From the NCBI RefSeq assembly GCF_016745095.1, contig NZ_CP067087.1:1182501-1246500 (forward strand): DNA of 64,000 bases, written 5' to 3'. This DNA comes from Croceicoccus sp. YJ47 (GTDB lineage: Bacteria > Pseudomonadota > Alphaproteobacteria > Sphingomonadales > Sphingomonadaceae). A program made the position numbers and the translations under genes. Under the pieces are notes generated by a model, which was not told the DNA's origin, searched no databases, and saw only the letters and a program-made list of their open reading frames with translations. Below are positions 3,738 to 39,467 of the stretch, in pieces; the stretch's first letter is position 1, and every line of letters begins with the position of its first letter.

Positions 3738-3749
3738 CGCCTGTCCTTC

Positions 3750-5300: not shown

Positions 5301-5356
5301 GCTCCTCCTGTTTCGCGATGGGCGGCACCAGATTTGCCTGGCACCACCCAACCGAT

Positions 5357-5740: not shown

Positions 5741-5751
5741 TCTTCTTCTCC

Positions 5752-8700: not shown

Positions 8701-8886
8701 CTCGACGATACGGGGCGCCTGACCTGGATAGTTCGAGCGGATCACCACCTGTACATCGGAAAGGTCCGGCAGGGCATCGACGGGCGTTGTCCGTACCGCC
8801 CAGAAACCGGCCAGCGCCAACCCGATCGCTGCCAGCACCACGAAAAAGCGATTGGCGATCGAGCTATCGATAATGCGCGCGATCAT
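5752..8886 (-). CDS. cusA: CusA-type heavy-metal RND efflux permease
   Basis: The inner-membrane pump of a tripartite Cu(+)/Ag(+) efflux system, 1044 aa, the normal length for CusA. The N terminus ([15 protein letters not shown]) is typical. The proton-relay helix reads [19 protein letters not shown], the HME4 (copper/silver) signature rather than the DFGxxVDG of Zn/Co/Cd pumps. The start at 8886 overlaps the cusB stop in ATGA, so translation is coupled. A longer in-frame extension upstream lies inside cusB and is not supported. It shares an operon with cusB and cusC (upstream) and the CusF-like gene (downstream). Confidence 0.95.
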
Positions 8887-21656: not shown

Positions 21657-24600
21657 TCATGCGATGTCCTTCAGCTCGGCCTCTTCATCGCTCGTCACAT
21701 TGCGACGCAGACGGTCCCACCACTTCTCGCGCCAGCTCCGCTCGTCGTCGGAACGGTGCAGTACAAGCCGCGCGATCGCGGGTAGGACGAACAGCGTGAG
21801 CGCGGTCGCCGTCATCAGACCGCCAATGACGACCGTAGCCAAAGGACGCTGCACTTCGGCCCCTGTTCCAGTGGCGATCGCCATGGGCACGAAGCCGAGC
21901 GAGGCCACCAGCGCGGTCATCAACACCGGTCGAAGGCGCGCGAGCGCGCCATCGGCAATCGCCTCGTCGAGCGGCATCCCGTTCTCGAGGCGCTGCCGGA
22001 TCGCGGTCATCATGACGAGACCGTTGAGCACCGCCACGCCGGAAAGCGCGATAAAGCCGACCGCTGCCGACACCGAGAATGGCAAGCCTCGCAGCGCCAG
22101 AGCGAACACCCCGCCAGCCAAGGCCATGGGAATGGCACTGAACACGGCAAGCGCTGGAACCCATCCACCCAAAGCCATGAACAGCAAGAGGAGAACCAGA
22201 GCGAAGGCAATCGGGACGACGATGGTGAGCCGCGCCTGCGCTTCCTGCAGGTTCTGATACTGTCCGCCCCATTCGATGAAGGAGGCCGGCGGCATATCGA
22301 CGCCGGTCGAAACCCTTTCCTGCGCTTCCTCAACAAAGGAGCCGAGATCGCGCTCGCGTACGTTGGCCGAGACGATCACAAGCCTTCGGCCCTGCTCTCG
22401 CCGAACCTCGGCAAGGCCATCGACGACCTGAAAATCGGCCAATGTCCGCAAAGGAACGGTGACCCCGTTTTCAAGCACGATCGGGAGCGCGCCGAGCTGG
22501 TCGAAATCGTCGCGCGTAGCATCCTCGAGGCGCACGACAACATCGAAACGGCGATCGCCCTCGAACACCAGTCCTGCTGGCCGCCCGCCGAGCGCGATAG
22601 CAACCGACTGTGCCACTTCCTCGACGGTCAGACCATAGCGCGCGATGGTCGGGCGATCGAAGGCGATGTCCAGCGTAGGAAAGCCGGTCACCTGCTGCAC
22701 CTTCACGTCCGCGGCGCCTTCGACACCTCCAAGCACGCCCGCGACCTCGCCCGCAGCTTCGGTGAGCGCAGTGAGGTCATCGCCGTAGAGCTTGACCGCG
22801 ACATCGCCGCGCACACCGGCGATCAGCTCGTTGAAGCGCAGCTCGATAGGCTGGCTGAACTCGTAGAGATTGCCGATGAGGCCTCCGAGCGCGCTTTCCA
22901 TTTCACCAACAAGCTCATCTTTCGGCAAATCGGGATCGGGCCATTCGTCGCGAGGCTTCAGGATGACATAAGCGTCCGAAGCATTGGGGGGCATTGGATC
23001 GCTGGCGACTTCGGCCGTGCCCGTCCGTGAGAACACAAGATCAACTTGGGGAAACTCTTCGAGCCGGTCTTCGACCCGCCGCTGCATCGCCAGCGAGCGT
23101 TCGAGCGATGTCGAGGGGATGCGCAAGGATTGCACCGCGATGTCGCGTTCATCGAGCTGCGGGGTGAACTCGCTGCCCAGAAAGCCGAACACAAAAACCG
23201 CTACTGTGAAGAGACCAACCCCGGCACCAATCATCGGCCAGGGCCGCGCAATGACCTTGCGCACGGCGGGACCGTAGCGCTCTTTGGCCCAGCGAATGGG
23301 CTTCACCTCCTTTTCGGTCAGCTTCTTGTTGAGCAGGACCGCAATCATCGCTGGCACGAAGGTCAATGAAAGAACGAAGGCCGAAGCCAGCGCGAGCAAC
23401 ATCGTGATCGCCATGGGCGAGAACGTCTTGCCCTCGACCCCGGTAAAGGTCAGCAGCGGCGCGAAGACGAGGAAGATAATCGCCTGACCGTAGACGGTCG
23501 GTTTGATCATTTCCTGCGCTGCGAGACGCGTTTCGGTCAGCCGCTCACCCAAGGTAAGCAAGCGTCCTTCGCGATGTTGCCGGGCCGCAAGCCGGGCGAC
23601 GCTGTTCTCGACAATGATGACCGCACCATCGACGATCAGCCCGAAGTCGAGCGCGCCCAGGCTCATCAGATTACCTGAGACACCAAGCCGGTTCATCCCC
23701 ACCGCTGCCATCAGCATCGAAACGGGAATGACCAGTGCGGTGATTATGGCGGCGCGGATATTGCCGAGCAAGAGGAACAGGACGGCGATCACGAGCAATG
23801 CGCCTTCGAGCAGGTTCTTTTCGACGGTGGAGATCGTCGCATCGACTAGTGAGGAACGATTGTAGACAATCTCAGCGACAACTCCGTCCGGAAGCGATGC
23901 GCGGACCTCTTCAAGTCTCTCGGCAGCACCAGCCGCAACGGTCCGGCTGTTCTCGCCCGCGCGCATCAACACGGTTCCCACCACCGCCTCTTCACCGTTC
24001 AGTGAAGCAGCACCGGTTCGCAGGTCGCCGCCGATCTCCACATCGGCCACATCGCCGATGCGGATGGGCACGCCCTCGCGGGTCGCAATGACGGCTTCTT
24101 CGATGTCGGCAATGCTGCCCAGCCTCGCGTCCACGCGGACAAGCAGGGCTTCGTCGGCACGATCGACGAAATTGGCGCCTGCCGCCAGATTGGCGGCTTC
24201 TAGAGCATCGATGAGTGAGTCGAATGACAGGCCATAGCCGGTGAGACGTGCCGGATCGGGCTGAACAAGGAATTGCTTTTCGAACCCGCCAATCGAGATC
24301 CACGCCGGCCACGCCGTCGATCGAGCGCATCAACGGCGCGACCACCCAATCCTGCACAGTGCGCAGATAGGCCGCCTTAGCCACCTCACTCTCGAGGCGG
24401 TCGCCGCGTTCGGTGATGAAGCTGCCATCGGACTGCCAGCCTGTGCGGCCACCAGTGGTCGCACCCTTGCCACCGGGATGCTCATACTCGATCGTATACA
24501 TCAGCACTTCGCCAAGGCCGGTGGAGATCGGCCCCATGGTAGGCTCCGCTCCTTCGGGCAATGAAGCGCCAATCGGCGCGAGCCGTTCGTTCACCTGCTG

Positions 24601-24987
24601 CCGGGCGAAGTAGAGGTCGGTGCCCTCCTCGAAAATCGCGGTGACCTGGCTGAAGCCGTTGCGCGAAATCGATCGTGTCATCTCCAGGCCTTCGATCCCG
24701 GCAAGTCCGGTTTCGATGGGGAAGGTCACCTGCGTCTCGACCTGCGAAGGTGAGAGCGCGGCAGCGCTGGTGTTGATCTGGACCTGCGTGTTGGTGATGT
24801 CGGGAACCGCGTCGATCGGCAGGCGCACCAGATTGAACGCTCCGTAGATCGCTGCGAACACGGTCAGGACGATGATCGCCCAGCGGAAACGAACGGCGAC
24901 ATCGAGGATGACTCCGATCGGGCCGTGACGGTGGCTACCTTCGTCCGAAGACATGGGAGAAGATGCCGTGGTTTGATCAATGGCCAT
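21657..24987 (-). pseudogene. czcA: CzcA-type heavy-metal RND permease, one frameshift
   Basis: A full-length (about 1109 aa) HME-RND pump interrupted by one extra base near 24297. Upstream, the frame ends in IDGVAGVD; family sequence (IGGFEKQFLVQPDPARL) resumes in the next frame. The proton-relay helix DFGLIVDGAVIIVEN is the Zn/Co/Cd class signature, unlike the copper-class CusA in the same window. All other family regions are intact. The start at 24987 overlaps the end of czcB by 11 bp. If the extra base is an assembly error, this is a normal czcA. Confidence 0.85.
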
Positions 24988-27455: not shown

Positions 27456-27827
27456 TCAGGCGCGAGGAGGACGTTTCAGTCGGGTGCTGACATCCGAGAC
27501 GGATGCCGCAACACGAGGCGCTGCAAGAATGACCGACGCAAGTGGAACCTGTTCGTTGTGGATTCCGCCAGCAAAACTCGCGCCGTGATGACAATGACCA
27601 TGACCGCAAACGCCGTGTTGATCGGCTGGCACTTCGGGATCGCCCTGATCGCCGTCGACATCTGAGGTTCCCGATCCCTCGTCAGCTGCAATCCAAGCCG
27701 CCGCATCGCCCGGAGCCACTTCCGAGCCGCAGGCAGCTGCATCTGCCGCAGTCGCAAAGATCATCGCGACCAGCATGAGCAGGACGACGAGCGGGTTGAG
27801 GACAAGGCGGCGATAGCTGTAAGTCAT
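27456..27827 (-). CDS. Small secreted His/Cys-rich protein at the head of the czc operon
   Basis: A 123-aa protein with a signal peptide (LNPLVVLLMLVAMIFATAADA), an acidic middle, and a metal-binding-looking cluster CGHGHCHHG. The family is not certain. Small periplasmic proteins of unknown function, such as CzcI, precede czcCBA in other bacteria, and this protein occupies that position, 64 bp upstream of czcC. A periplasmic zinc-binding or sensing role is inferred. Confidence 0.65.
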   Translation of the reverse strand: MTYSYRRLVLNPLVVLLMLVAMIFATAADAAACGSEVAPGDAAAWIAADEGSGTSDVDGDQGDPEVPADQHGVCGHGHCHHGASFAGGIHNEQVPLASVILAAPRVAASVSDVSTRLKRPPRA

Positions 27828-28028
27828 GAATTTGGGCCGCCATTAGCAGAGACAAACCGAGCTGCCTAGTGCAATATTCTGTCAGCTTAGATCCATTATT
27901 GTGACACTATAACACAACACCAGTGCTCTTATATTGTTGAAGGAGGGCCCGGCGGGGGCGTAAAGTCAGGCGAATCTGCATCGGACTACAAGAGGCTCTT
28001 GGCCTACCGCACGAAGCAAGAACCAATT

Positions 28029-28060
28029 AGCGCGCCAGCGACATAATCGTCGCCGGCGCG
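28029..28060 (-). terminator. Hairpin, probable terminator of the DUF2493 gene
   Basis: Arms 28031-28041 and 28048-28058 pair over 11 bp with one G-T pair and a 6-nt loop, 17 bp beyond the DUF2493 stop. There is only a weak T-rich stretch after it, so termination strength is uncertain. The remaining bases 27828-28028 hold the upstream region of the czc operon, with no clear gene. Confidence 0.5.
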
Positions 28061-28075
28061 TAGCAGATTCGACGT

Positions 28076-29017
28076 TTAGTCATATCGTTTTGGGATGCTT
28101 GCACCCAAGCTGCGCCGGTCAACGACGGTAATTCGCCGGGCCTTGGCGTCAATCACTAGACGCTCAAGAACGCCATTGCCGGGAAGCGCGATCACATAGC
28201 GCGGATTCATCTGGAGCATCTGCTCATTGCGCTTGAACCCGGCTCGTGCCCCCAGCCGTCTGTCGAGTGAAAACACCAATTGCTGTATATCGTGCCGTTC
28301 GGCCCAGCTGGCCGCAAGCCGATCAACGCCTTTGGTGTCGCCGCCGTGCACCAGGAACATGTCGGGCACATGATCATGTACCTTGTCGAGCGTTGACCAG
28401 ACCTTGGAGGCGAAAGCCTTGGCGTCTTCCGCGGTGGCAAACGAAGACCGGCCACCGGAAAAGACGATTGGTGTGCCTTGCGGTGTATTGGCATCCTGGC
28501 GACGCTCAGCCCGCGCGCGCAGGAAATCGCGGGCGTCGACAACCGCAGAGGTCACTTTGCGCGAATGGTTCGAACGCGATCCGGTAAATGGCTTCCATGA
28601 CGAACCGGTTTCATCGAGATAGAGCGATGCAGCGACCTCTCGCATCTGTTCAAACGCCATCATGCTGGCCTCGGCTGCCTGAGCGCGTTCGACCTGCTCA
28701 TCGAGATTGCTTGAATGGACTTCAGATCCGTCAGCTGCGGCGAGGAGCGCCCGGACTTCATCGCTTGCCCGGTCGAGTTGATTAGACTTACGCGTGGCAG
28801 CCCGGTGAAACAGATTGACGAAGCCCCAGGCCACGTCTTCGGCGTCCGCTTCGAGCGATGTGCCCGAGAACATGACAAACATGTCGGACCAGATTGCAGC
28901 AAGCGTCTGCTCGACTGCTTCTTCACTTGGAAAATCGGACGGGTCGAAAGGTGCCAGCTTGATGGTCAGACCTGTAAGGTCGAGACCGGCGAGATGATGG
29001 GTAAAACTATCGTACAT
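28076..29017 (-). CDS. DUF2493 (SLOG-fold) mobile-element protein
   Basis: A 313-aa protein. The N-terminal 180 residues are helical and acidic and of unknown role. The C-terminal part matches DUF2493: a Rossmann-like SLOG domain with IVFSGGR, VHGGDTKGVDRLAASWA and YVIALPGNG. SLOG domains bind nucleotides or nucleotide-derived signals, and DUF2493 proteins are common on plasmids and integrative elements. The start is fixed by AGGAGG 7 nt upstream. A structured leader like those of ardC, the ParB-like gene and the helicase gene precedes it. Confidence 0.8.
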   Translation of the reverse strand: MYDSFTHHLAGLDLTGLTIKLAPFDPSDFPSEEAVEQTLAAIWSDMFVMFSGTSLEADAEDVAWGFVNLFHRAATRKSNQLDRASDEVRALLAAADGSEVHSSNLDEQVERAQAAEASMMAFEQMREVAASLYLDETGSSWKPFTGSRSNHSRKVTSAVVDARDFLRARAERRQDANTPQGTPIVFSGGRSSFATAEDAKAFASKVWSTLDKVHDHVPDMFLVHGGDTKGVDRLAASWAERHDIQQLVFSLDRRLGARAGFKRNEQMLQMNPRYVIALPGNGVLERLVIDAKARRITVVDRRSLGASIPKRYD

Positions 29018-29105
29018 GGGTAAACCTCCTGATGTGTTCAGGCGGCAAAGCTTTCGAGAACGGAATGCCTCGCTCCTTGTCCGCCGGAGCCCGATCAGGG
29101 CCGGC
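29018..29105 (-). promoter_or_regulatory. Structured 5' leader of the DUF2493 gene (leader family member A)
   Basis: The ribosome-binding site ATCAGGAGG (plus-strand CTCCTGAT at 29026-29033) has an exact upstream complement, CCTGAT in the mRNA (plus-strand ATCAGG, 29094-29099). GGCGG and CCGCC arms inside can pair as well, and a GAGCGAGGCATTCCG segment resembles the ardC leader. This could hide the ribosome-binding site. Confidence 0.45.
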
Positions 29106-29135
29106 TAGAGTGGGTTGGCGCACCGCGAAGCGGGA

Positions 29136-29187
29136 AACCTGCTAGGCAAGGCTGGCGCGGGCCACACGGGCCGCAGCCTTGCAGGTT
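29136..29187. repeat. Long imperfect inverted repeat between two mobile-element genes
   Basis: AACCTG...GCAAGGCTG...GGGCC pairs with GGGCC...CAGCCTTGC...AGGTT across a short ACAC loop, giving a roughly 52-nt hairpin with small internal bulges. It lies between the stop of the 151-aa gene (29294) and the leader of the DUF2493 gene. There is no T-run. It could be a processing or termination structure, or a single-strand DNA element. Confidence 0.5.
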
Positions 29188-29293
29188 GCGCCAGGCCACG
29201 GCCGGTCCAGGGCCTCTCCCGGCGGTCAGGCACGAGGCAGAGCGCAACTCCTTTGCCTGCAACAGCAGCGGGAATTGCACAAACGACTTGGTG

Positions 29294-29749
29294 TCAGCGA
29301 GCTGCCGCTTTCGAGACTTCTGCGGTGCGCGCCTCGATCCGCTCGAACACGGCTTCGCCATTGGAGAAGCTACCGATCTGGCGTAGCTCGCCAAACATCT
29401 GCGAGAACTTGCCCGAGACTTGCTCGAGCCATCGCTGTGCGCGGCCAGTTCTGGGGCGGCTATAATCTGCTTCCCAGTAGAAGCTGTCATCACGCTCGGC
29501 GAGCCAGATGGCCGCGAGGTCGCAATAGATGGAGATGCCGCAATCGGCATAGGCATTGCGAAGAAGGATCCGGTCTTCGCGCCCACGCCAGCCATCGTGA
29601 GGCACAAGTGAGGGAAAGACTTCGCGCGCGGTGCTGATGATATCCTCGACCTGGCATTCATATTCCCAGTCGAGGTCGCCCTCCTCTTTGTTCTCAATCA
29701 GGCGAAAGGCGACGATGGCCCCTATTGGGTAACTTACAGAACGTCCCAT
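29294..29749 (-). CDS. Conserved-looking hypothetical protein of the mobile module
   Basis: I do not recognise this 151-aa protein. It is soluble, tryptophan-rich and acidic (EEGDLDWEYECQVEDII, WLAERDDSFYWEADYSRP), with a helical C terminus and no membrane segment. The start at 29749 is chosen because GGAGG lies 6 nt upstream; an upstream in-frame ATG at 29815 lies inside ardC. It follows ardC by 13 bp, so the two are co-transcribed. Confidence 0.65.
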   Translation of the reverse strand: MGRSVSYPIGAIVAFRLIENKEEGDLDWEYECQVEDIISTAREVFPSLVPHDGWRGREDRILLRNAYADCGISIYCDLAAIWLAERDDSFYWEADYSRPRTGRAQRWLEQVSGKFSQMFGELRQIGSFSNGEAVFERIEARTAEVSKAAAR

Positions 29750-29762
29750 GATACGCCTCCCT

Positions 29763-30695
29763 TCACGCGGCTTCGGCGAGATCATCGCCGAATTCAGGGT
29801 CGCTGTGTTCGGCATGGCCGCCCAGGCGGAGTAACAGCGATGACGCTTCTTCAGCCTTGGCTGCGGCCGTCAGCATGGCTCTGTCGTCCGATCTCAGGAG
29901 CTTCAGCCAGTGCGAAATGTAGCTGGCATGATTGTCGAGATGGGTAACGGGCAGGCCCAGTTCGGCGCCCAGAATCGCCGATGAAAGCTCGGCTACGAGT
30001 TCTTCAGCTGCATAAGCTTCGCTACCGAAACGGTTCTTGAGATCACGATTGAGCCGGGACGAATGCCCAGTCCAGTGCGACAGCTCATGGGCAAGTGTCG
30101 CATAGTAATGGTCAAATCCCTCGAACAGCGTGGCAGGCGGCATGGTGATCCGGTCGCGGACGGGCTCGTAATAGGCTTCGCTGCCCCTATGACGCAGCTG
30201 CGCTTCGATCCGGGCAAAGAATGTATCGAGCTTATGCTGACGCCCGGCGGGTTCTACCGGCTCCATGAGCAGCGCGGGACTGTATATGGCGGGAAGGTCA
30301 TCGCACTGGTCCGCATTGAAGATTGCGTAAGACTTGAGGACGCGGCGCGTCTCGGTGTCTTCGCCACCATCGGGCGTTTCGACTTCCTTGTCATAGGTCT
30401 TGTAGAAGATGGCGATGCTCGACTTCTCGCCTTTTCGCACCTGTCCGCCGAGTTTTGCGCACTGGCGGTAGGTCATCCAATAGGGCGAGGCGAAGCCTGA
30501 TGCCTCGGCCATCATCCAAAGCCAGAATGTGTTCATGCCCCGGTACGGTGTGCCGCAGCTGCGCAACGGGCGGGATGTCGGAACTGCGCGCCAGGGTTTG
30601 ACCCAGGGTTTGGTGCCCTGCTCGAGCTTTTCAATGATGGCGGCAGTAATGCGACCGGCTGGAGAAACTGAAGCAGTGCGGTGGGACTTGGTCAT
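29763..30695 (-). CDS. ardC: ArdC-like antirestriction protein with zincin metallopeptidase domain
   Basis: A 310-aa protein. The N-terminal single-stranded-DNA-binding domain (about 10-130) contains KPWVKPWRA and YRGMNTFWLW. The C-terminal zinc metallopeptidase-like domain has HELSH (203-207) followed by GHSSRLNRD. ArdC proteins of conjugative plasmids protect incoming DNA from restriction. The start at 30695 is supported by AGGAG 8 nt upstream; the in-frame ATG at 30746 falls in the structured leader. It is co-transcribed with a downstream hypothetical gene. Confidence 0.85.
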   Translation of the reverse strand: MTKSHRTASVSPAGRITAAIIEKLEQGTKPWVKPWRAVPTSRPLRSCGTPYRGMNTFWLWMMAEASGFASPYWMTYRQCAKLGGQVRKGEKSSIAIFYKTYDKEVETPDGGEDTETRRVLKSYAIFNADQCDDLPAIYSPALLMEPVEPAGRQHKLDTFFARIEAQLRHRGSEAYYEPVRDRITMPPATLFEGFDHYYATLAHELSHWTGHSSRLNRDLKNRFGSEAYAAEELVAELSSAILGAELGLPVTHLDNHASYISHWLKLLRSDDRAMLTAAAKAEEASSLLLRLGGHAEHSDPEFGDDLAEAA

Positions 30696-30780
30696 GAGAA
30701 CTCTCCTGATTGCCGGGACGAGCATGCCTCGGCTCAGGAAGAGCAAAGCTCCCTCCTCTCTCCGCCTCTGAGACGGACGA
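30696..30780 (-). promoter_or_regulatory. Structured 5' leader of ardC (leader family member C)
   Basis: In mRNA sense: the purine tract GAGAGAGGAGGGAGC, a hairpin GAGC-TTT-GCTC, then CTTCCTGAGCCGAGGCATGC, then ATCAGGAG 8 nt before the start. TCCTGA (plus-strand TCAGGA, 30734-30739) is complementary to TCAGGA within the ribosome-binding site (plus 30703-30710). Confidence 0.5.
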
Positions 30781-30794
30781 CATTCAGGTAAAAC

Positions 30795-30830
30795 GCGAAA
30801 AGACGGTCCATCCCTGGTGGAATGGACCGC
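30795..30830 (-). terminator. Intrinsic terminator after the ParB-like gene
   Basis: On the minus strand CGGTCCATTCC and GGGATGGACCG pair around an ACCA loop and are followed by TCTTTTCGCGTTTT. It lies about 32 bp past the stop of the ParB-like gene and just before the ardC leader, so ardC needs its own promoter. Confidence 0.75.
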
Positions 30831-30861
30831 CCGCCGAGTGACCTGGACCTGTCAGGAGGGG

Positions 30862-32832
30862 TCAGGCAGCCTGCTCGGCAATTTTGTTCGCGGCCTCGTC
30901 CTCAGCCGGGTCCGCGGCTTCATCCTCGACCGGTTCCTCAGGGGAACCGAAGCGCATGATCTCGGGCACCCAAGCTCCCGCTCGCGTTTTCACATCGGCC
31001 TCGCCAATGAAATTGCCGGAGAAGATGCGCTCGGCTGCGCTCGCCAGTTCTGCCTTCTTCGAGCCTGCATAGCGGCTGACGAGTTCGGGGCCGCCTGCTG
31101 CATCGAGCGCTTCGAGCGTGCGTGCCTTGGCCACACGATCGAAATAGTTCGCCGCCGTCGGCCGCCACCAATGCGCGGTTTCGATCTCGAGCATCGACCC
31201 GAGGATTTCGTGCAGCGGTGCCGAGCGATCGCCTTCGCAGGCAAGGCTCGCGACCAGCGTGCGGGATACGACGTGGCCGAGCCAGGCCGAACGTGCTTCA
31301 TCGCTCAATGCGCGGAAGCGTTCGAACCGCTCGACATCGGTCTCACCGGAGCGCCAGCTTTCGTCGAGCGAAGCGGCGAACTCGGCGAGCGCTGCGCTCG
31401 CTGGGGCGTCCTTCGCCTCGAAGCCGGCCACCGGTCCCGACGCTACCGAGCCGACCAGCGTCGATGCCTTCTTCGCGCGCCAGTCATGCCCATCGGCATC
31501 CGCGAGCGTGAAGACCATGAAGTCGAGCGCAAGCGCGGGATCGTTGGCCAGGTGGATCGCCAGGATATCGCGACGCTGCATCGCGAGCTCGTCGAGCAGA
31601 CGCTGCGAAAGCGCCCCGCTCTTGCGCTTGGTATCAGCGCCAGCATCCACTGGTTCGACTGCTCCGTCATCAGCGTTGACGACTTCAACTTCGGTGTAGA
31701 ATTGCGGCACCAATGCCGGTTCGCCATTCCGTGAAAGCACAAGGAACGCTCCAGCCTCTGCCTTAAGTTCGTCGGCAAGGACCGGCGGACGATCGTTGAG
31801 ATCGCGCATCGCGCGGTCGATCGAGACCAGTTCTTCTTCCGCCTTGGCGATCTCGCCTTCGTCGCTGTCCTCATCCTCGAGGATGGCTGCCGTCCGGTCG
31901 TAGTCGGCTTCCAAGTCGCTGAGCTCGCGGGCCTCCTCTTCGGTCAGCGGAGCCGGTTCGCATGGAAGCCGGTTGAGGCCCTCGACGAGGTCGTGGCTAA
32001 CATAGTTGCCAAGCGTGGGTCGCACCCAGGTAAGTCCGTGTTCTTCCGCGACCTTCTTCGCGGCATCACCCATCGCTTTCTGGGCCAGGTCTTCGAGGAG
32101 CGAGACATCGATCCAGCTTTCGCTGGCTTCGTCGTCGAAGAGTTCGCGTTCGATGCGGCCACCTGCAGCAAGGTAGGCGTCACGCCCGACCAGAACCGCG
32201 CGCGGATCGGAGCCACGAACAGTGGCATCGAGCACCATACGCCGGATTGTGTCAGGCGTGACCTGGTACCAGGCATCCTGCAGTTCGGCAAAGACGTGCG
32301 CTTGGCGATCGATGTCCGAGATTGCCCCATAGGCTTTGGCCATGTCGAGCGTGATTGCGCCTTCGGCGAGCGCCTCGAAAACACAAGGTGCGAGGCCTGC
32401 CAGGCGCAGACGACCCTCGACAAAGCGGACTGTGAGACCGAACCGGCGCGCCACATCTTCGGTACTGGCTCCCGCCTCGATGATCGCAGCGAAAGCCTGT
32501 GCCTCGTCGGCCGGGTTCATGGCGAGGCGCTGGAAGTTCTCGGCGAGGCTCGCTTCGCGCACTTCGCTTTCCTTGCCTTCGATGACAAGACAAGTGACCT
32601 CGTGGTTCTTGGGAAGCGTGCCTTCCTCGGCCAGTGCTTGGAGCTGAGCCAGACGGCGACCACCGGCCTCGACTTCGAACTTGCCGCGCTTGGCTTTTCG
32701 CACGACGAGGTTCTGCAAAAGGCCGCGCGCGGCGATGTCCGCACGCAGTTGCAGGTCGGCAAGGACGTCGCTCGACTTGCGCACATTGCGCGGGCTTTGA
32801 ACGAGCTTCTTCAAGGGAATAGACTGGATCAT
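30862..32832 (-). CDS. Large ParB/Srx-domain protein of mobile elements
   Basis: A 656-aa protein. Residues about 1-110 form a ParB/sulfiredoxin-type domain (PLKKLVQSPRNVRKS, GLLQNLVVRK, AGGRRLAQLQAL, ENFQRLAMNPADEAQAF). A helix-turn-helix follows (STEDVARRFGLTVRFVEGR). The long remainder is acidic and helical, without a recognised domain. Proteins of this architecture are typical accessory genes of alphaproteobacterial plasmids and integrative elements. They are not paired with ParA, and no parA is present here, so a partition role is unlikely. The start at 32832 has AGGAGA 7 nt upstream. Confidence 0.82.
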   Translation of the reverse strand: MIQSIPLKKLVQSPRNVRKSSDVLADLQLRADIAARGLLQNLVVRKAKRGKFEVEAGGRRLAQLQALAEEGTLPKNHEVTCLVIEGKESEVREASLAENFQRLAMNPADEAQAFAAIIEAGASTEDVARRFGLTVRFVEGRLRLAGLAPCVFEALAEGAITLDMAKAYGAISDIDRQAHVFAELQDAWYQVTPDTIRRMVLDATVRGSDPRAVLVGRDAYLAAGGRIERELFDDEASESWIDVSLLEDLAQKAMGDAAKKVAEEHGLTWVRPTLGNYVSHDLVEGLNRLPCEPAPLTEEEARELSDLEADYDRTAAILEDEDSDEGEIAKAEEELVSIDRAMRDLNDRPPVLADELKAEAGAFLVLSRNGEPALVPQFYTEVEVVNADDGAVEPVDAGADTKRKSGALSQRLLDELAMQRRDILAIHLANDPALALDFMVFTLADADGHDWRAKKASTLVGSVASGPVAGFEAKDAPASAALAEFAASLDESWRSGETDVERFERFRALSDEARSAWLGHVVSRTLVASLACEGDRSAPLHEILGSMLEIETAHWWRPTAANYFDRVAKARTLEALDAAGGPELVSRYAGSKKAELASAAERIFSGNFIGEADVKTRAGAWVPEIMRFGSPEEPVEDEAADPAEDEAANKIAEQAA

Positions 32833-32930
32833 GGATTTTCTCCTGATGGGTTGAGGAGCCACGCGAAGGTGCATGGCCCGACAAGCCACCGGCTCCCTCC
32901 CCTCTCTCACGCTTGGTCTTGGATTTGCTC
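32833..32930 (-). promoter_or_regulatory. Structured 5' leader of the ParB-like gene (leader family member D)
   Basis: In mRNA sense: GAGAGAGGGGAGGGAGCC, hairpin AGCC-GGT-GGCT, then GTGGCTCCTCAACCC and ATCAGGAG before the start. CTCCT (plus-strand AGGAG, 32854-32858) can pair with AGGAG of the ribosome-binding site (plus 32840-32844) in a short hairpin. Confidence 0.5.
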
Positions 32931-32931
32931 C

Positions 32932-35900
32932 TCAGGTCGCAATTGCCGGGAGAATGGAGGATGCCTTCGACACGGGGACAAAAAGGCGCGTACGGTAGCG
33001 AATGATCTCGGTGAAACAGCCCTTGGTCTTGTACCACTCGAGTCGTTCAGGCGCATACCCGGTGAGTTCGAGGCGCTGCTCGCCGCCAACCAGGGAGCGC
33101 TTGATGGTCAGTCCGTCATGACTGGTAAACGGCTGGGGCGTTCCGCTTGCCAGGACCAGTTTCCCGAGTTCCGCCGGAGCCGGGCCGGACACACCCTTCA
33201 AGCCGAATGACTCGGCGATCTTGGCAAGGTCGATATCGAGGACTTCACGCCCGATGATCGAGCTGCCGTCCTCGGCGGCAAGCCGCGTGACCCGAACATG
33301 GTCGCCAGGCAGCCGCTTCCAGACCGGAAGCAGCAGCCCCGTCGCCAGATGCACTCGTTCGGTCACCGGCGAGGCAGCTGCGGCGTTTTCTTCCTGTGCC
33401 CAGAGCTGGGAGAACTCGGTCAAGCCGACCTTTTCCCACAAGCTTTCACCAAGCGCCTCGAGCGTCCAGTTGACCGATTGAAGCGGCCGGAGAAGGCGAC
33501 GGCGTTCGATCACCGCGCCATCATCGGCAATGAGGCGCCGAGCCGGAACTGACAGGGCCACCTTGCCCGAGCGCGCATTGCGCAGGGGAATGGCCTGAGG
33601 TGATCCGATCTCGTGCATCCTCACGAGACGTTTGAAGCGAAGCGGACGCAATTGGCGTTTCACTTCGAGCGAAACGAGACGAGTTTCGGCGCCAGAGACA
33701 GGATCGGTGCGGAGCAATTCGTCGGAGAGGGCCGCGAAACTATCGACACGGACCGTCTCCAGACCAAGATCGAGCGTGCCGGCCTCGCGTGCGGCCTCGA
33801 TCCGCGCCTCGACAAGGCCGAGATATTCCTCGAAGATACCGTTTTGCAGCGCAATGGGCAGCGCGAGGATGCGGTTGAGCCAGCGCTGGATGGTGGGCAG
33901 GTTGTCGGTCAGGCCGCCATCGGGGCTCTCGAGCTTGAGGCCGGTTCGCTCGACGAAGTCCCCGAAACCGACGGCTTCGAGCTTTCCGTCGTAAAGCAGG
34001 TGAAACCAGCGCGAGAGCGCGTCCTTGGCATAGTCGCTTTCGAGATTGTCGGCAGGGTCGAACAGGTTCTGTCCTCCGGTCTGACGCTGGCCGCGTGTGA
34101 GAGCGCCCAATGCGTCGAGCCTTCGCGCGATGGTCGAGATGAAGCGGCGTTCGCCCTTCACATCGGTCGTCACCGGGCGGAACAGCGGCGCAGAAGCCTG
34201 ATTGGTGCGATTGGTGCGGCCGAGACCCTGGATCGCATTGTCCGCGCGCCAGCCCGGTTCGAGGAGGAAATGGACACGGCGCTGCTGATTCTGAGCGTCG
34301 AGGTCGGCGTGATAGGACCGTCCCGTACCCCCTGCGTCCGAGAAGACCAGAATACGTTTCGTTCCGTCCATGAAGCACTGTGCTTCGGCGACGTTGGCGC
34401 TTGCGCTTCGGCGTTCAAGCCGCTGCTGACCGTCGCGTCCCAAGACCAACCTGCGCGTGCGGCCTGTGACTTCCGCCACGGCCTCGGTCCCGAAGTGCTC
34501 AATGATGGCATCGAGTGCAGTCGCGATGGGGGGCAATGCGCAAAGCTGCTCGATCAGTGCGTCGCGCGCGGCGATGGCCCGCGAGCAGAGGACAGGATTG
34601 CCGTGCTCGTCGCTCATCGCTTCGGAACGCAGATTGCCCTCCTCGTCAGTAAAGACCTGCATCAGGCGCACGGGGAAGCTCTTCGCGAGATAGTCGATGA
34701 CATATTCGCGCGGCGAGAGATCGATATCGAGCGCTTCTCGCTCCTCGTCCGAGAGATCGGCCAGGCGCCGGTCGAGCATCGCTTCGGCGGTCGAGACCAG
34801 CTGCACGACCACCGAGTGACCATCGCTCAGCGCCTCTTCCATCACCGGGATCAGGCTCGGCAGTTTCATTGAAAGCAGAAGCTGCGCGAAGAAGCGCTGC
34901 TTGGTGCCTTCGAACATCGAGAGCGCTGCAGCCTTGGCGTTGCGATTGAGCGTATCACCGCTGTCCTCGTCGACCACCCTTGTGGCCTCGAGCGCTTCGT
35001 CGAGGTTGTGGTGGATGATCGCCCAGGCCTCGGCGTAGGCATCATAGATCCGCACCTGCGCTTGCGTCAGCTGATGTTCGAGGATGTCGTATTCGACCCC
35101 CGCAAAGGACAACGCGCGAGCAAGGTAGAGCCCTTGTGCCTTGAGATCGCGAGCGACGAGTTCCATCGCCGCAACACCGCCCGCGCGGATTTCGGTCATG
35201 AATGCCTCATGCGTTGGAAACGCGGTTTCGGGACCCCACAGTCCAAGCCGGGCTGTGTAGCCGAGATTGGCAATGTCCGATGCGCCGGTGGCCGACGCGT
35301 AAAGCACACGTGCGCGCGGCAGGTGGTTCTGAAGCCTGAGCCCTGCCATCCCTTGCTCCGATCCTTTGACTTTGCCGCGAGTCGAGGAAGAGCCGAGCGC
35401 ATTGGCCATCGCATGCGCTTCGTCGAAGGCAATCACGCCCTCGAAATCTTCGGCGGCCCAGGCGAGGATCTGATCGAGCCTTGTGTCCTCGGCGCGTCCC
35501 GAACGAAGAGTTGGATAGGTTACGAACAGGATACCCTCGGCCATCGTCACCGGACTTCCGAGCTTCCATCGGGAGAGCGGCTGGATGTCGAGTGGGAGTC
35601 CCCCGAGTGCTTCCCAGTCGCGGCGCGCGTCTTCGAGCAGTGCCTCGTTCTTGGTGATCCATATGTGGCGGCGTTCGCCCGACAGCCAGCGATCCATAAT
35701 GACGCCCGCGATTTGGCGGCCCTTGCCCGCGCCCGTACCATCACCGAGGAAAAAGCCCTGGCGGTAGAAGTGTCCGTCCTCCGCGAGTTCGACCGTCGTT
35801 CCATGTTGGCTCGGTCGAAACTGCCCGGGAAGCTCGCGGGCGAATGCCTCGCAAGCGTAGATCAGTGTTTCGCACTGTGCCGCCGATAGCAGTTTGTCGC

Positions 35901-37167
35901 TCTGCCAGTTCGCAGGAAGCAAGGGACGCGCCTCAGGCACGGGCGCTGCAACCGAGCCCATCGCAACCGATTCTACGAGCGGCGTCGGGTGAACGGGTGC
36001 ATCATGCATGATGACGCGGCTCGGCCGGTAAGGCAGGTAGATGCCCGCCTGCTCGGGAACGGGCGCGGGCTCGTCCAGGGCTTGATAGTCGAGCGCGATT
36101 GCCGCGCTTTTTGGGGCGGCTCTGGTCACGAAAGGAGCGACCGGCTTGCGCGAGGCGGCGCCGCTTACCGAGGTCGCAACCGAACGTACCGGAAAGCGAT
36201 GGATTTTGGCCTGGAAGGGAGCACGAACGGGCAAATGCGCCAGGCAGGAATTCAGTTCGGCGAGATCGGCGAACTCTCCCGAAATCGTAGAATTGTCCTG
36301 AAGAGGCTCCTTGTCGATGACGACCATTCTGACCGCGATTCCGGTTCCGCTTCGTGAGAATGCGCCCGACAACCGGACGTTGAGCAGCAGCGAAGCTTGT
36401 TCCTGGTCTTCGACAAAAGCCACGGCATCAAAGCCGTCCGGGATAATGGCGACGAGGCGACCTCCTGAAGCGCACACCCGAAGCGCGCTGCGCATGTGGC
36501 GCATTGCCGTGCGGCCATCGACGCCGCGCTCGCGGCTTCGGGCGAAGGGAGGGTTCATAAGGATGATGCTGGGGCTTGAGCCATCGACGAGTTCGGCGAT
36601 CAACTCGCCATCATGAGCGGATAGTCTGGCTCGAGAGAAGATATGCGCCAGCGCATGCCGGCGTGCGGGATCGATTTCGTTGAGGCTCAGCGAGCACCCT
36701 CGAACGTCACCCCAGAGCGCAAGAGCGCCATTCCCGGCTGACGGTTCGAGAACGCGAGCGCGCGGGGCAAGGCAAGCGGCTTTGGCCATCAGCCAAGCAA
36801 GGATCGGCGGCGTCGAAAACTGCTGCAGCTCGACCTGGCCCTCGCTGCGCACATGGCGAGGCGGCAAGGCCGCCTCGAGCCAATCGAACCGTGCTGCAGC
36901 CTCGTGGAAACCTGTCTCGAGGTCGATCCGTGAGAACTCGCGAAGCCAGAGCAAGGCTCCGATCTCGACCGCGTTGTTATAGTCGTCGATGGTCCACGCA
37001 CTGCCCCAGTCCTGTACGCCGGTTTGAGAGGCGAAGAACTCGGCAATGTCAGGCCGGGTGAGGTGGCAACCATCCGCAAGTCGCCGGGAAATTTGTTCAC
37101 CGATTGCGAGAGCGAGCGGAATTGTGCTCGATGTCTCGCGGTCTGGAAAAAAGTCTGACTGAAACAT
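32932..37167 (-). CDS. N6-adenine-type methyltransferase/strawberry-notch helicase fusion (DarB-like)
   Basis: A 1411-aa protein combining two enzymes. The N-terminal DNA methyltransferase domain has QQFSTPPILAWLM, the AdoMet motif VLEPSAGNGALA (139-150) and the catalytic NPPF (205-208). The helicase part has Walker A GDGTGAGKG (475-483), DEAH (582-585) and a strawberry-notch C-terminal domain (GWRADNAIQGLGRTNRTNQA). Phage P1 DarB, which shields injected DNA from restriction, has the same combination, and ArdC in the same module fits that role. Whether methylation is active is not known. The start at 37167 is set by AGGAGGAGG upstream; the in-frame ATG at 37194 lies in the leader. Confidence 0.87.
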   Translation of the reverse strand: MFQSDFFPDRETSSTIPLALAIGEQISRRLADGCHLTRPDIAEFFASQTGVQDWGSAWTIDDYNNAVEIGALLWLREFSRIDLETGFHEAAARFDWLEAALPPRHVRSEGQVELQQFSTPPILAWLMAKAACLAPRARVLEPSAGNGALALWGDVRGCSLSLNEIDPARRHALAHIFSRARLSAHDGELIAELVDGSSPSIILMNPPFARSRERGVDGRTAMRHMRSALRVCASGGRLVAIIPDGFDAVAFVEDQEQASLLLNVRLSGAFSRSGTGIAVRMVVIDKEPLQDNSTISGEFADLAELNSCLAHLPVRAPFQAKIHRFPVRSVATSVSGAASRKPVAPFVTRAAPKSAAIALDYQALDEPAPVPEQAGIYLPYRPSRVIMHDAPVHPTPLVESVAMGSVAAPVPEARPLLPANWQSDKLLSAAQCETLIYACEAFARELPGQFRPSQHGTTVELAEDGHFYRQGFFLGDGTGAGKGRQIAGVIMDRWLSGERRHIWITKNEALLEDARRDWEALGGLPLDIQPLSRWKLGSPVTMAEGILFVTYPTLRSGRAEDTRLDQILAWAAEDFEGVIAFDEAHAMANALGSSSTRGKVKGSEQGMAGLRLQNHLPRARVLYASATGASDIANLGYTARLGLWGPETAFPTHEAFMTEIRAGGVAAMELVARDLKAQGLYLARALSFAGVEYDILEHQLTQAQVRIYDAYAEAWAIIHHNLDEALEATRVVDEDSGDTLNRNAKAAALSMFEGTKQRFFAQLLLSMKLPSLIPVMEEALSDGHSVVVQLVSTAEAMLDRRLADLSDEEREALDIDLSPREYVIDYLAKSFPVRLMQVFTDEEGNLRSEAMSDEHGNPVLCSRAIAARDALIEQLCALPPIATALDAIIEHFGTEAVAEVTGRTRRLVLGRDGQQRLERRSASANVAEAQCFMDGTKRILVFSDAGGTGRSYHADLDAQNQQRRVHFLLEPGWRADNAIQGLGRTNRTNQASAPLFRPVTTDVKGERRFISTIARRLDALGALTRGQRQTGGQNLFDPADNLESDYAKDALSRWFHLLYDGKLEAVGFGDFVERTGLKLESPDGGLTDNLPTIQRWLNRILALPIALQNGIFEEYLGLVEARIEAAREAGTLDLGLETVRVDSFAALSDELLRTDPVSGAETRLVSLEVKRQLRPLRFKRLVRMHEIGSPQAIPLRNARSGKVALSVPARRLIADDGAVIERRRLLRPLQSVNWTLEALGESLWEKVGLTEFSQLWAQEENAAAASPVTERVHLATGLLLPVWKRLPGDHVRVTRLAAEDGSSIIGREVLDIDLAKIAESFGLKGVSGPAPAELGKLVLASGTPQPFTSHDGLTIKRSLVGGEQRLELTGYAPERLEWYKTKGCFTEIIRYRTRLFVPVSKASSILPAIAT

Positions 37168-37245
37168 GGATTGTCCTCCTCCTGATTGAGGCATCGGGAC
37201 ACGTGCCCTCTGCCGGGTCAGGAATTCGAGAAGCTCTCTCTCCTC
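37168..37245 (-). promoter_or_regulatory. Structured 5' leader of the methyltransferase-helicase gene (leader family member E)
   Basis: In mRNA sense: AAGAGGAGAGAGAGCTTCTC, then ATTCCTGACCCGGC, a GGGCACGTGTCCC inverted repeat, and ATCAGGAG. TCCTGA (plus-strand TCAGGA, 37218-37223) is complementary to the ribosome-binding site (plus 37179-37186). It shares TTCCTGA-CCG with the ardC leader. Confidence 0.5.
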
Positions 37246-38157
37246 TTAGCGACACGCCTTTCGGCGCAGCCATGACTGGAGCTCGTCGTTCCAGTCGGTA
37301 CCGCGCAACTTAGGCCGTCGAACTTGGATGAGCCGCCCTTCACGGAGATAGGCACCTCGCCCGCGCTCGGCTGCAAGGTCGCCGCCAGAATCGTGATCGA
37401 CGAAGAGATGAAGGTCGCTCACGCTCTCCGGAATGGCAACCAGCCCGAAGCGTTCATTGCCCAGCGTTGCCCACGTCGGGATACCGGTGAGCGCATAGGC
37501 CGACATCGCGCTTTCAATGCCTTCGGCGAGACCGAGCCTTCCCTCGGCAGGTTCGAACAGACGTACCGCCGCCTCGCCGAGCGACCCCAGTGCGCGTTTC
37601 GGCTTGGCAAACGATGCCTGCGTATCGCCGGAATGCGACAGGAAGGTCCGGTGAACGGCAATCGGGCCCTCGTCGAGACTGACCGCAGCGATCATCGCTG
37701 GCAGAAAACGCGCACGGACCTTCGGTCCAAGCGGTGCGCGCGGATGAAACCTCAGCGCATGGGACGTCGCGAGGATGCCGCGCTCTTCGAGATATGCCTT
37801 GGCAGGACTTCGTTGCAGCGGCCGGGCATCGCGCCAGATGCGGAGTGCTGCAGCCGATGGCTTGTTGGAATATCCCGGCTGGATCGGAAATTCGTCAGAG
37901 GAGCCAGAGAATAGCGCTGAGGTCTCGAGCCCCTCTCGAGCGAGGGCGGAAAGCACGCTCGCCTGATCGCAGCCGGCGAAACAATGGAATAGGATGGCCT
38001 TCCGGCCAAGGGTGACACCAAGCGAAGGCGTGCGATCGTCATGCGCAGGACAACGGGCCATGCCCTTGGTGCCAGACCACTTGCCGCCGCGGCTCTCGCA
38101 GAGCCTGCGAGCGGTGATCTCCATTGAAGTGAATCTTGTCGTTTCATGAGTGGACAT
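37246..38157 (-). CDS. CHC2-zinc-finger/Toprim primase-like protein
   Basis: A 303-aa DnaG-like protein of mobile elements. The zinc motif is CPAHDDRTPSL (C36, H39) with FHCFAGC (C59, C63). The Toprim domain near the C terminus has LGLAEGIESAMSA and the metal-binding DHDSGGD, then GTDWNDELQ. It may prime DNA synthesis on transferred or replicating element DNA. The ATG at 38157 is preferred (AGGAAGGA about 14 nt upstream); one at 38124 is possible. It lies upstream of the helicase gene, with only the helicase leader (78 bp) between. Confidence 0.82.
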   Translation of the reverse strand: MSTHETTRFTSMEITARRLCESRGGKWSGTKGMARCPAHDDRTPSLGVTLGRKAILFHCFAGCDQASVLSALAREGLETSALFSGSSDEFPIQPGYSNKPSAAALRIWRDARPLQRSPAKAYLEERGILATSHALRFHPRAPLGPKVRARFLPAMIAAVSLDEGPIAVHRTFLSHSGDTQASFAKPKRALGSLGEAAVRLFEPAEGRLGLAEGIESAMSAYALTGIPTWATLGNERFGLVAIPESVSDLHLFVDHDSGGDLAAERGRGAYLREGRLIQVRRPKLRGTDWNDELQSWLRRKACR

Positions 38158-38432
38158 GGGCTCTGCGATCCTTCCTGGCTCACCATCCGATGCCCCCTCT
38201 GCTCTGGCTGACCTATGCACGAGATAGCAGCTGCCGGAGGCTCGGGCGCTGGATCACAAGACCGGCAAGACGGAGCCTTGAATAGCCCAACGCCAGATGC
38301 TCGTAACAGAGCGCCGCACATTCCACTTGGCGTCTGCTACCAAACCATTGATTCCCGCAGGAAGGCGAGCCGGAGACGGCAGGCCGCCTCCGGCCAAGGG
38401 GCAGGCGTCTACCTTATCCCTTGTCTGTCAGA

Positions 38433-38636
38433 TCACTTGGTTTGTTCGCCTCTCAATTCGCGCCGTGCCTGCGGCAGACGGTCTCGCCAGGTCCGCTCAT
38501 GAGACACGCGAAAGACCTTTCCGGACCTGCTCAACCCGACCAGCGCGGCAACGGGCATATGTCTGGTTGCGCCTTCGCGCTTCGCGCGCGCAAAGATCAC
38601 TTTTGCCCGTTCGATTTCTTCGGCTGTGTAATTCAT
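38433..38636 (-). CDS. Small basic hypothetical protein
   Basis: I do not recognise this 67-aa basic protein (YTAEEIERAKVIFARAKREG). AAAGGAG sits 7 nt before its ATG. A hairpin with a T7 run, a strong intrinsic terminator, lies 40 nt upstream on the same strand, so expression may depend on read-through. It could be a small DNA-binding protein, though no fold is evident. Between its stop and the Toprim gene (38158-38432) I see no other gene. Confidence 0.5.
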   Translation of the reverse strand: MNYTAEEIERAKVIFARAKREGATRHMPVAALVGLSRSGKVFRVSHERTWRDRLPQARRELRGEQTK

Positions 38637-38675
38637 ATCGTGCTCCTTTGGTTAGCCTGCAGGAGCGGTCGCATG

Positions 38676-38706
38676 AAAAAAAGCGAACCCCTCTTACAGG
38701 GTCCGC
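38676..38706 (-). terminator. Intrinsic terminator/attenuator upstream of the small gene
   Basis: On the minus strand GCGGACCCT and AGGGGTTCGC pair around a short loop and are followed by seven T. It lies in the leader of the 67-aa gene, not after any minus-strand gene, so it either attenuates that gene or ends a small RNA. Confidence 0.7.
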
Positions 38707-38781
38707 CGGTTAACCTCCCGATGGAGGACGGGACCTTGGATCATCGATCCAGGGCTGCCGACCAATGCCGGCATGCGTGAC
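38676..38781 (-). ncRNA. Candidate small RNA or attenuator leader
   Basis: From a predicted start near 38781 to the T-run, about 105 nt contain a perfect hairpin (GGATC-GAT-GATCC), a second (CCTCC-ATC-GGGAGG) and the terminator stem. No reading frame with a ribosome-binding site lies within. It may act in trans, or sense a ligand and control read-through into the 67-aa gene. No known riboswitch class is recognised by eye. Confidence 0.45.
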
Positions 38782-38787
38782 GATTTT

Positions 38788-38815
38788 GATATAGGCAGCG
38801 ATAGCGATCATACAA
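38788..38815 (-). promoter_or_regulatory. Predicted sigma-70-type promoter for the small RNA/leader
   Basis: On the minus strand TTGTAT (plus 38810-38815) and TATATC (plus 38788-38793) are 16 nt apart, and a start near 38781 would follow. It lies just upstream of the divergent gene at 38841. Confidence 0.45.
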
Positions 38816-38840
38816 CTTCCAGAGATGCTACTCCCTCTCC

Positions 38841-39467
38841 ATGACCGAGCCTCTCCCCGCAATCGACATCAAGATCTCTGCAGAACCCTCGCTCTTTCTG
38901 GAGAGAATGATCGCGCTCGGCGAGCAATCAGGCCGTTTTACCATCGAGCATGTCGACGACCGTGCCAGTGGAACGCGCCTGGAAGTCGTCAACTTCCGTC
39001 TCCTGAACGAAAGCCCGCATGAAGAACACGGTTTCCAACTTATAGCGCGCCGGGAGAAGCTCGACCGTATCCAGGTCGAGATACGCGCGCAGCGTTGGTC
39101 GCCCGATCCGCCCACGCAGGCTGTCTATGAACAGTCCGCCCGTGATCTCGTCCGGCCGCTTCTGAAAAGCTACAACCGGTCCTTCCAAACGAAGCATCGC
39201 TTGCGCATTGGTGCCCGTGAAGGATCATCGTTCAGAATTTCGGAGCGAACGCAGACCCTGCTCCGCCGCTTCACGACCCTCGCCAATACACGGTCGCTCC
39301 ATCCCTTCGACTGGCACCGGTTCTACCTACTCGTACGCGAGGGCCGACAGGAAATTCCCGATAATATCCTGCGCGCGAAACTCGAACAGGCGGGTTTCAC
39401 AAACGCAATGGCGCGGGAAGTCGCACAGCTCTATGTGCATCTGTGGGAATTTAAGCGGTTGCGCTGA
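38841..39467 (+). CDS. Hypothetical protein, 208 aa, mobile region
   Basis: I do not recognise this family. The protein is soluble and basic in the middle, with alternating strands and helices (FTIEHVDDRASGTRLEVVNFRLL; SYNRSFQTKHRLRIGAREGSSFRI) and a helical C terminus (DWHRFYLLVREG). It has no cysteine motif, membrane segment or catalytic signature. It is divergent from the minus-strand module and stands alone. No strong ribosome-binding site is visible before the ATG; a start nearby on the same frame cannot be excluded. Confidence 0.6.
   Translation: MTEPLPAIDIKISAEPSLFLERMIALGEQSGRFTIEHVDDRASGTRLEVVNFRLLNESPHEEHGFQLIARREKLDRIQVEIRAQRWSPDPPTQAVYEQSARDLVRPLLKSYNRSFQTKHRLRIGAREGSSFRISERTQTLLRRFTTLANTRSLHPFDWHRFYLLVREGRQEIPDNILRAKLEQAGFTNAMAREVAQLYVHLWEFKRLR

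Follow-up and report, generated by a model that had tools for sequence, protein, structure and literature searches.

Many bacterial and phage messages are regulated through structures that include the Shine-Dalgarno (SD) sequence. In the autogenous leaders of ribosomal proteins and in the targets of T4 RegA-type repressors, several cistrons are held under one RNA-binding repressor, and the SD lies within a structure. The target leaders of CsrA/RsmA proteins carry GA-rich motifs, one in a hairpin loop and one beside the SD. Both arrangements resemble a leader element found in Croceicoccus sp. YJ47, within a window (the whole stretch of DNA analysed, 64,000 nucleotides; NZ_CP067087.1 positions 1,182,501 to 1,246,500, or G000:C1:1182501-1246500 in our numbering) of its 3.35 Mb single-contig genome. 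On the minus strand of this window, a mobile module is arranged in the order toprim/DUF7146, strawberry-notch helicase, ParB-like, ardC, a small open reading frame (ORF) and DUF2493/YspA. The leaders of the helicase, ParB-like and ardC genes follow a common plan of purine tract, hairpin, SD and AUG. Unlike the ribosomal-protein and RegA systems, the leader here is repeated gene by gene on mobile elements and its regulator is putative, and unlike the CsrA/RsmA targets, its core is AGAGG rather than GGA and its genome lacks CsrA.

The STAXI motif is another structured element that occurs near single-stranded-DNA-binding protein (SSB), topoisomerase, antirestriction and integrase genes, but it is described as consisting of tandem pseudoknots (PMC2864571), whereas the leaders examined here have no Rfam match. 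At the gathering score, Rfam 15 yields no match to a leader in the window or in eight loci from relatives. When E values up to 10 are admitted, five sub-threshold matches appear in the region, none of them on a leader with a tract; one lies at 29132-29190, upstream of the DUF2493 hairpin. Six more distant loci searched with E values up to 0.5 likewise give no leader match, in a search that did find the S-element and ctRNA_p42d and thus works. No description of the leader was recognised among the matches listed in a search of the open-access literature, a scope that mostly leaves subscription papers outside. SD-sequestering leaders are a known kind of regulator, and one that is repeated on several genes of a mobile establishment module, together with this tract, appears to be new. 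Control of the establishment genes of conjugative elements is usually sought in DNA, in the form of single-stranded promoters and repressors. An RNA leader on several genes of one module, with a covarying relative on rhizobial and other alphaproteobacterial plasmids, would add a post-transcriptional layer that is directly testable. It would also open a route to the ParB-like and helicase proteins, which are poorly understood, and its covariance models offer a new way of finding such modules in genomes.

A preliminary description of the window had proposed that four leaders end in ATCAGGAG and can hide this ribosome-binding site by pairing. The sequence is indeed present on the minus strand at 29026-29033 (DUF2493), 30703-30710 (ardC), 32840-32847 (ParB-like) and 37179-37186 (helicase); it occurs six times in the window against 2.05 expected, and none of 100 shuffles reaches six. 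The purine tract claimed for three of these leaders is also there, as an exact pattern match for ardC (30748-30762) and ParB-like (32892-32906) and with two mismatches for the helicase (37233-37247). The tracts themselves are placed at 30749-30763, 32893-32907 and 37234-37248, the last beginning at the toprim stop codon (37246-37248). Each of the four proposed anti-SD stretches was found as well. In the helicase hairpin (37179-37223), TCCTGA (37218-37223) can pair with ATCAGGAG around an inner stem GGCA/TGCC, and the ATG follows at 37167. The ParB-like leader has its hairpin region and SD at 32840-32887, with the SD at 32840-32847, CTCCT at 32854-32858 and the ATG at 32832. The ardC hairpin (30703-30739) pairs TCCTGA (30734-30739) with ATCAGGAG, has an inner stem CCGAGGC/GTCCCGG and precedes an ATG at 30692. 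The DUF2493 leader represents a separate type, a longer conserved hairpin of its own (29026-29099) in which CCTGAT (29094-29099) meets the terminal ATCAGGAG and which has no tract. A further, marginal tract that was absent from the preliminary list lies before the toprim gene (38192-38206, minus strand; three mismatches, tract matrix score 13.2) and is clearer among relatives. Loose forms of the tract pattern are not enriched, either in the window with three mismatches allowed (10 matches versus 8.5 by chance) or in the whole genome with two (15 versus 22 for the reversed pattern), and therefore only good matches count. The possibility that ribosomes use the tract to translate a small upstream ORF was considered and rejected, because no conserved start and frame was seen by eye.

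The kinship of the three leaders can be assessed with a covariance model built from 31 ardC leaders, the window's included. When the whole genome is searched with this model, the top six matches are those on the helicase, ParB-like and ardC genes of this module and a second one, ranked in the order ardC 1213196, helicase 3010452, helicase 1219672, ParB-like 3021597, ParB-like 1215333 and ardC 3023751. The window's own leaders thus stand first (ardC, by construction), third (helicase) and fifth (ParB-like), and it is this ranking, not the E values of 7e-17 to about 1, that constitutes the evidence. Across 16 loci, the same model gives 26 matches up to an E value of 1, and all 26 fall on known leaders. 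The second module is a diverged copy at G000:C1:3010452-3034000 (loci L046, L260, L262, L264 and L266) with tract leaders of its own; a tract at 3033950 in this copy precedes a short ORF resembling the end of ArdC. Near the second copy, L046 also has a match to sul1 RNA (RF03058) at 12848-12903.

The homologues compared come from 149 genomes of the family and 80 named loci. Among unique leaders, at least 13 purines in a stretch of 14 are found in 32 of 37 for the helicase, 65 of 72 for ParB-like and 47 of 62 for ardC, compared with 35 of 352 control leaders, 0 of 40 for DUF2493 and 0 of 43 for the small ORF. The four-gene leader of the preliminary description therefore holds for the helicase, ParB-like and ardC genes but not for DUF2493, which shares ATCAGGAG only. 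For toprim this count gave 0 of 32, with the start codon having been set too far upstream, and the 20 control leaders that have 14 purines of 14 include toprim genes of relatives (L049 and L064, for example). The fitted tract motif holds 17 bits, with A5, G6, A10, G11 and G15 each conserved in at least 95%. At a score of at least 13, the resulting matrix finds 364 matches in 4.45 million strand-bases versus 45 in one shuffle, although it was trained on part of the scanned loci, and these loci are partly redundant so that counts are not independent. An SD and an ORF whose start is 22-105 nucleotides beyond the tract follow 330 of the 364 matches, versus 11% of 3000 random positions. The genes behind these tracts are ParB-like (119), ardC (75), helicase (30), toprim (26) and a few small genes, and there are 54 further helicase tracts where a shorter ORF was called first, as in the window's own helicase leader.

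Eight plasmid records outside the training set contain 27 tract matches (23 separate sites) on the gene strand and one on the other, where most genes of these plasmids lie on the former strand and the leader of one record (L191, plasmid pC8-2) is identical to a training leader. The ParB-like leader reaches a tract score of at least 9.3 in all eight. Among 105 coding sequences examined on a 131-kb plasmid (132 features annotated), six show 13 or 14 purines of 14: the ParB-like gene, one small gene and the helicase of the module, and three genes outside it, all at 13. By eye, leaders with different upstream sequence become similar from the tract onwards (L052, L054 and L059 versus L049). A tract leader also appears on the gene that follows DUF2493 (L071, 13819-13891; L067, 4064-4135), which by position in L178 may be DUF6878. 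In L191, the helicase ORF opens at 1690 directly after a tract leader, so that the start annotated at 1813 has probably been set too far into the gene.

In other alphaproteobacteria the ParB-like leader is a strict structured RNA. ParB-like relatives with about 30% identity in Rhizobium, Agrobacterium, Methylocystis, Mesorhizobium and other alphaproteobacteria have a structured leader, in which a tract AGAGG-N-AGAGG is followed by a stem P1 (GUGACGGG...CCCGUCAC) that continues into the SD GGAG and by a stem P2 closed by an AGAGG loop. The two AGAGG units of the tract are present in 17 and 23 of 28 sequences, and the apical loop is AGAGG in 17 and AGAGT in 7 of the 28. These 28 sequences remained from 36 loci after L194 and L220 (no SD by pattern), L199 (divergent) and five leaderless loci (L216, L218, L221, L223 and L228) were set aside; L093 and L198 were inspected and kept out of the set. 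In this alignment, 91.2% of cells are paired and 13 of 21 pairs show double changes. There are 40 cells with double changes against 14.2 in shuffled alignments, none of 500 shuffles equals the real alignment in any of five measures, and every slid register scores far lower. The covarying structure includes a stem that contains the SD, formed by columns 30-33 with 81-84 (GGAG). The hairpin folds with a mean z score of -4.69 (-7.34 to -2.33) and an SD pairing probability of 0.87, the latter figure standing without a control. Another 15 sequences outside the model, drawn from 13 of 30 loci, give 286 paired cells of 307 and 18 double changes versus 3.9 (0 of 500 shuffles) in an alignment fitted to the model. 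Covariation in homologous leaders, on which the preliminary proposal depended, is therefore strong in the distant family but stands at the level of shuffles within the window's ardC clade.

Run on 385 genomes of the class, the model of the distant leader finds matches in 27. In 17 of these 27 there are two to four copies, some of them only a few kilobases apart. Where the start of the following gene could be read (22 of 30 loci), the gene is ParB-like in 17, ArdC in two and DUF932-type in two, while one more begins like a ParB-like gene and failed the match criterion. The ArdC assignments rely on Pfam for L236 (ArdcN and MPTase-PolyVal) and on inspection by eye for L257. Of the DUF932-type proteins, neither of which has a Pfam or NCBIfam match, that of L246 shares 76% identity with a protein carrying the DUF932 annotation and that of L258 was assigned by eye. 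When the distant model is run over 27 sources, it recovers the leaders of two distant plasmids, then L194 (E value 0.0029), and then 18 weak matches, the best of which is in L087 (E value 0.23); seven of the 18 fall on tract leaders (L087, L089, L080, L191, L066 and two in L189). The sphingomonad and distant leaders are treated here as one plan, probably of one origin.

Whether such elements act as RNA or as DNA can be judged from the base pairs that are tolerated. Cells with G-T exceed cells with A-C by 97:13, 26:2 and 10:1, and by 36 to 7 among the sequences outside the distant model. If hairpins of the template strand had been selected, A-C cells would be frequent in the sense strand, and their rarity indicates that the mRNA strand is conserved. 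The sense strand folds better in 51 of 59 leaders and the antisense strand in three, compared with 199 versus 139 of 352 controls; antisense folds also beat shuffles, but less so (z about -2.3). These data bear on the Frpo/ssi principle put forward in the preliminary description, in which hairpins on the incoming T-strand serve as single-stranded DNA promoters for early expression. Frpo elements resemble the present leaders in being hairpins that precede leading-region genes and are used by the leading regions of other plasmids (PMC11541004). The anti-restriction and DNA-processing genes of the module do share one strand, and an SSB gene adjoins them in two plasmids. But Frpo/ssi hairpins are promoters at the DNA level, whereas here the strand bias and the better sense folding point to the mRNA, and the 3' arm of the hairpin contains or abuts the SD. 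A consensus scan of the window from 27800 to 38900 finds two promoter-like sites versus 2.0 in shuffles, neither of them in a leader. Such a promoter thus seems extremely unlikely. The broader suggestion of one switch acting through RNA or single-stranded DNA survives in its first half, as an RNA-level element that recurs on module genes in the same genome, in relatives, on plasmids and in other alphaproteobacteria, but not in its second.

A protein that binds double-stranded DNA presents a different possibility, as the tract might be the operator of a DNA-binding regulator such as the ParB-like protein itself. KorB is known to regulate plasmid operons, structures of ParB, Noc and KorB are matched by the ParB-like protein, and its own gene carries the leader in the sphingomonad type as well as in the distant type. 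However, the tract is not palindromic, its orientation and its place relative to the SD are fixed, it often comes after upstream stop codons, and it is accompanied by an RNA hairpin, for which the distant family shows covariation. With these features, an operator is very unlikely.

Folding analyses give a more qualified picture for the window's clade. From tract to start codon, and relative to dinucleotide shuffles, mean z scores are -2.84 for ardC (n=21), -2.96 for ParB-like (n=30) and -2.45 for the helicase (n=8), versus -0.47 for control leaders (n=150); this folding, along with the tract, is out of the ordinary. The DUF2493 leader also folds well (-2.10, n=19, versus -0.30, n=100). Over -90 to +12 the effect is weaker, with medians of -0.9 to -1.7, and the window's own copies reach z scores of only -0.45 (helicase), -0.47 (ParB-like), -1.02 (ardC) and -0.78 (DUF2493). 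Mean SD pairing probabilities are 0.57 (helicase), 0.65 (ParB-like), 0.84 (ardC) and 0.58 (DUF2493), compared with 0.60 for 352 control leaders from the same loci. Hiding of the SD, as measured by folding energy, is thus an ordinary trait and not the special one it had been taken for, with ardC excepted. With a longer stretch and another definition of the SD, the values are 0.86, 0.55, 0.76 and 0.74 in the same order, in this case without a control. In the window itself, the SD is paired with a probability of 1.0 for ardC and 0.43 for ParB-like.

The alignments covered 31 of 42 ardC leaders and eight ParB leaders of the next ParB clade, whereas mixed sphingomonad ParB leaders align badly and their covariation was not counted. 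The CCTGA/TCAGG stem of the ardC clade is paired in 94.8% of cells and almost invariant, and its inner stem varies mostly by G-U. Because the SD stem hardly changes, covariation says nothing in the window's clade. Two loci, L106 and L110, have ParB-like proteins 93-95% identical to the window's together with a quite different leader sequence of the same plan, a pattern that looks, from comparison of the sequences, as if leaders are exchanged.

The explanation that might best accommodate these observations is translational control. The helicase, ParB-like and ardC genes, and in relatives also toprim and some small genes, would each be preceded by a structured mRNA leader of the same kind, whose hairpin limits ribosome access to the cistron, with the SD inside or directly against the 3' arm. 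The AGAGG-type purine motif could then be where a shared factor binds, most likely a protein encoded by the element, and the cistrons would be switched together after transcription. We give this reading, of leaders in which a hairpin limits the SD and a purine motif is read by a putative common factor, about an even chance of being correct. Control by a trans-acting RNA or protein, the other model of the preliminary description, accordingly fits best among the readings considered, but the factor it calls for is only putative.

The main rival requires no special factor. The tract could act as an extended SD, pairing with the 16S rRNA 3' tail and parking a 30S subunit upstream of the hairpin. 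That subunit would either move on to the SD once the hairpin opens or protect the mRNA from 5' decay. With CCUCCUUUCU, a tail taken from a Sphingomonas rRNA, sphingomonad tracts pair at a mean of -12.9 kcal/mol versus -7.4 for their own SDs, and 112 of 131 unique tracts pair at 9 or 10 of 10 positions versus 38% of permuted tracts (mean z -1.5). Moreover, the tract starts within -5 to +4 of the stop codon of an upstream ORF in 89 of 330 cases, and a terminating ribosome would leave its 30S subunit there. An RNase J-like protein is found at 356 bits, below the family cut-off of 400, and carries little weight because the family is found in 13 of 14 control genomes. A precedent exists in the STAB-SD of Bacillus thuringiensis cry3A, which is likewise an SD-like purine stretch that does not initiate translation but is able to pair with the 3' end of 16S rRNA (PMC4113751). 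It is described near the 5' end of one transcript, in contrast to the several cistrons, the hairpin and the poor 16S pairing of distant members seen here. The case for 16S pairing, convincing at first, is weakened by the tract itself: at position 6, 98% of tracts have G although A would give the best pairing (G15 is at 97%), and distant tracts hardly beat permutation (z -0.63). Nor does 16S pairing explain why AGAGG recurs in a closed apical loop, and the 16S tail of the window's genome was not found on search. Ribosome docking of this kind is consequently possible but doubtful, and the presence of one short motif both in the tract and in a closed loop is more suggestive of a site for a protein.

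Another alternative is that the leaders are processing or stability elements of a polycistronic message with little effect on initiation. They do sit between cistrons, and their similarity starts at the tract despite differing upstream sequence, but they end at the SD of the next gene and P1 of the distant family includes that SD, which makes this role improbable.

As a candidate for the protein that reads the motif, CsrA was rejected, because PF02599 has no match in the genome, whereas the same search was positive in 3 of 14 control genomes. Since the ParB-like gene carries the leader in the sphingomonad and in the distant type, its autoregulation is the first candidate. The fold predicted for this protein, a moderate model (mean predicted local distance difference test score 73, predicted template modelling score 0.35), resembles ParB, Noc and KorB along a stretch of about 200 residues; as only this part is visible in the prediction, it neither supports nor refutes an RNA-binding fold.

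Transcription might add a further layer. Of 90 loci from relatives of the window (L046-L177), 66 have a GAAC-N7-GAAC site, the LexA box of alphaproteobacteria, upstream of toprim, where 0.014 per stretch is expected, and with such a site the module is probably SOS-induced there, judging by sequence. Upstream of the window's own toprim gene (38157-38450) the site was not found. Only tentatively can it be suggested that a dedicated RNA-binding regulator, possibly the ParB-like protein, reads AGAGG and thereby turns the translation of establishment and anti-restriction genes on or off, a layer added to the SOS control of the window's clade. If true, the strawberry-notch helicase, ParB-like, ArdC and toprim genes would form the module of a post-transcriptional entry programme of alphaproteobacterial conjugative elements, for which the literature searches listed no description.

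Several findings weigh against translational control by a shared leader. Among the leaders of the window's clade, only those of ardC clearly exceed the control in SD pairing, and the hairpin of distant sphingomonad ParB leaders stops before AGGAG and leaves the SD free. Covariation in the ardC clade equals that of shuffles (one double change), and in the next ParB clade it is modest (three pairs with double changes; 14 of 500 shuffles). The distant model gives no match on the window's leaders, and its three weak matches in the window all lie elsewhere. The ardC gene or its zincin counterpart lacks a tract in seven of the eight named plasmids, with a score of 11 reached in one of the eight, and ardC has no tract in distant loci. 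Some ParB-like relatives are without a leader, namely those of L198 (a Pseudomonas plasmid), L093, L216, L218, L221, L223 and L228, as is the DUF932-type gene of Rhizobium pRlvD. The GAAC-N7-GAAC site was not seen before toprim in the four named plasmids checked. Finally, the factor proposed for the leader is putative, and the csrA gene is absent.

The genes of the module are all on the minus strand. The toprim/DUF7146 gene extends from 37246 to 38157, its start near 38157 being inferred, with Pfam Toprim_3 and DUF7146 matches on the ORF 37246-38220. The strawberry-notch helicase gene (32932-37167) matches AAA_34 and Helicase_C_4, the ParB-like gene (30862-32832) ParB_N and HTH_ParB, ardC (29763-30692) ArdcN and MPTase-PolyVal, and the DUF2493/YspA-type gene (28076-29017) YAcAr. 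The closest named relatives of the ParB-like gene are from Erythrobacteraceae. Between the ParB-like and ardC genes, at 30740-30840, an inverted repeat followed by T runs looks terminator-like by eye, although the site scan did not report it; in many relatives these two genes are several kilobases apart. Elsewhere in the window, the aldehyde dehydrogenase gene (15692-17091) and the RND transporter gene (21657-24987, with Pfam run on the longer ORF only) each appear broken over two overlapping ORFs. On the same strand as the module, 1407-9024 holds cargo of the copper-resistance type, with a P-type ATPase, a multicopper oxidase, CusF and an RND pump.

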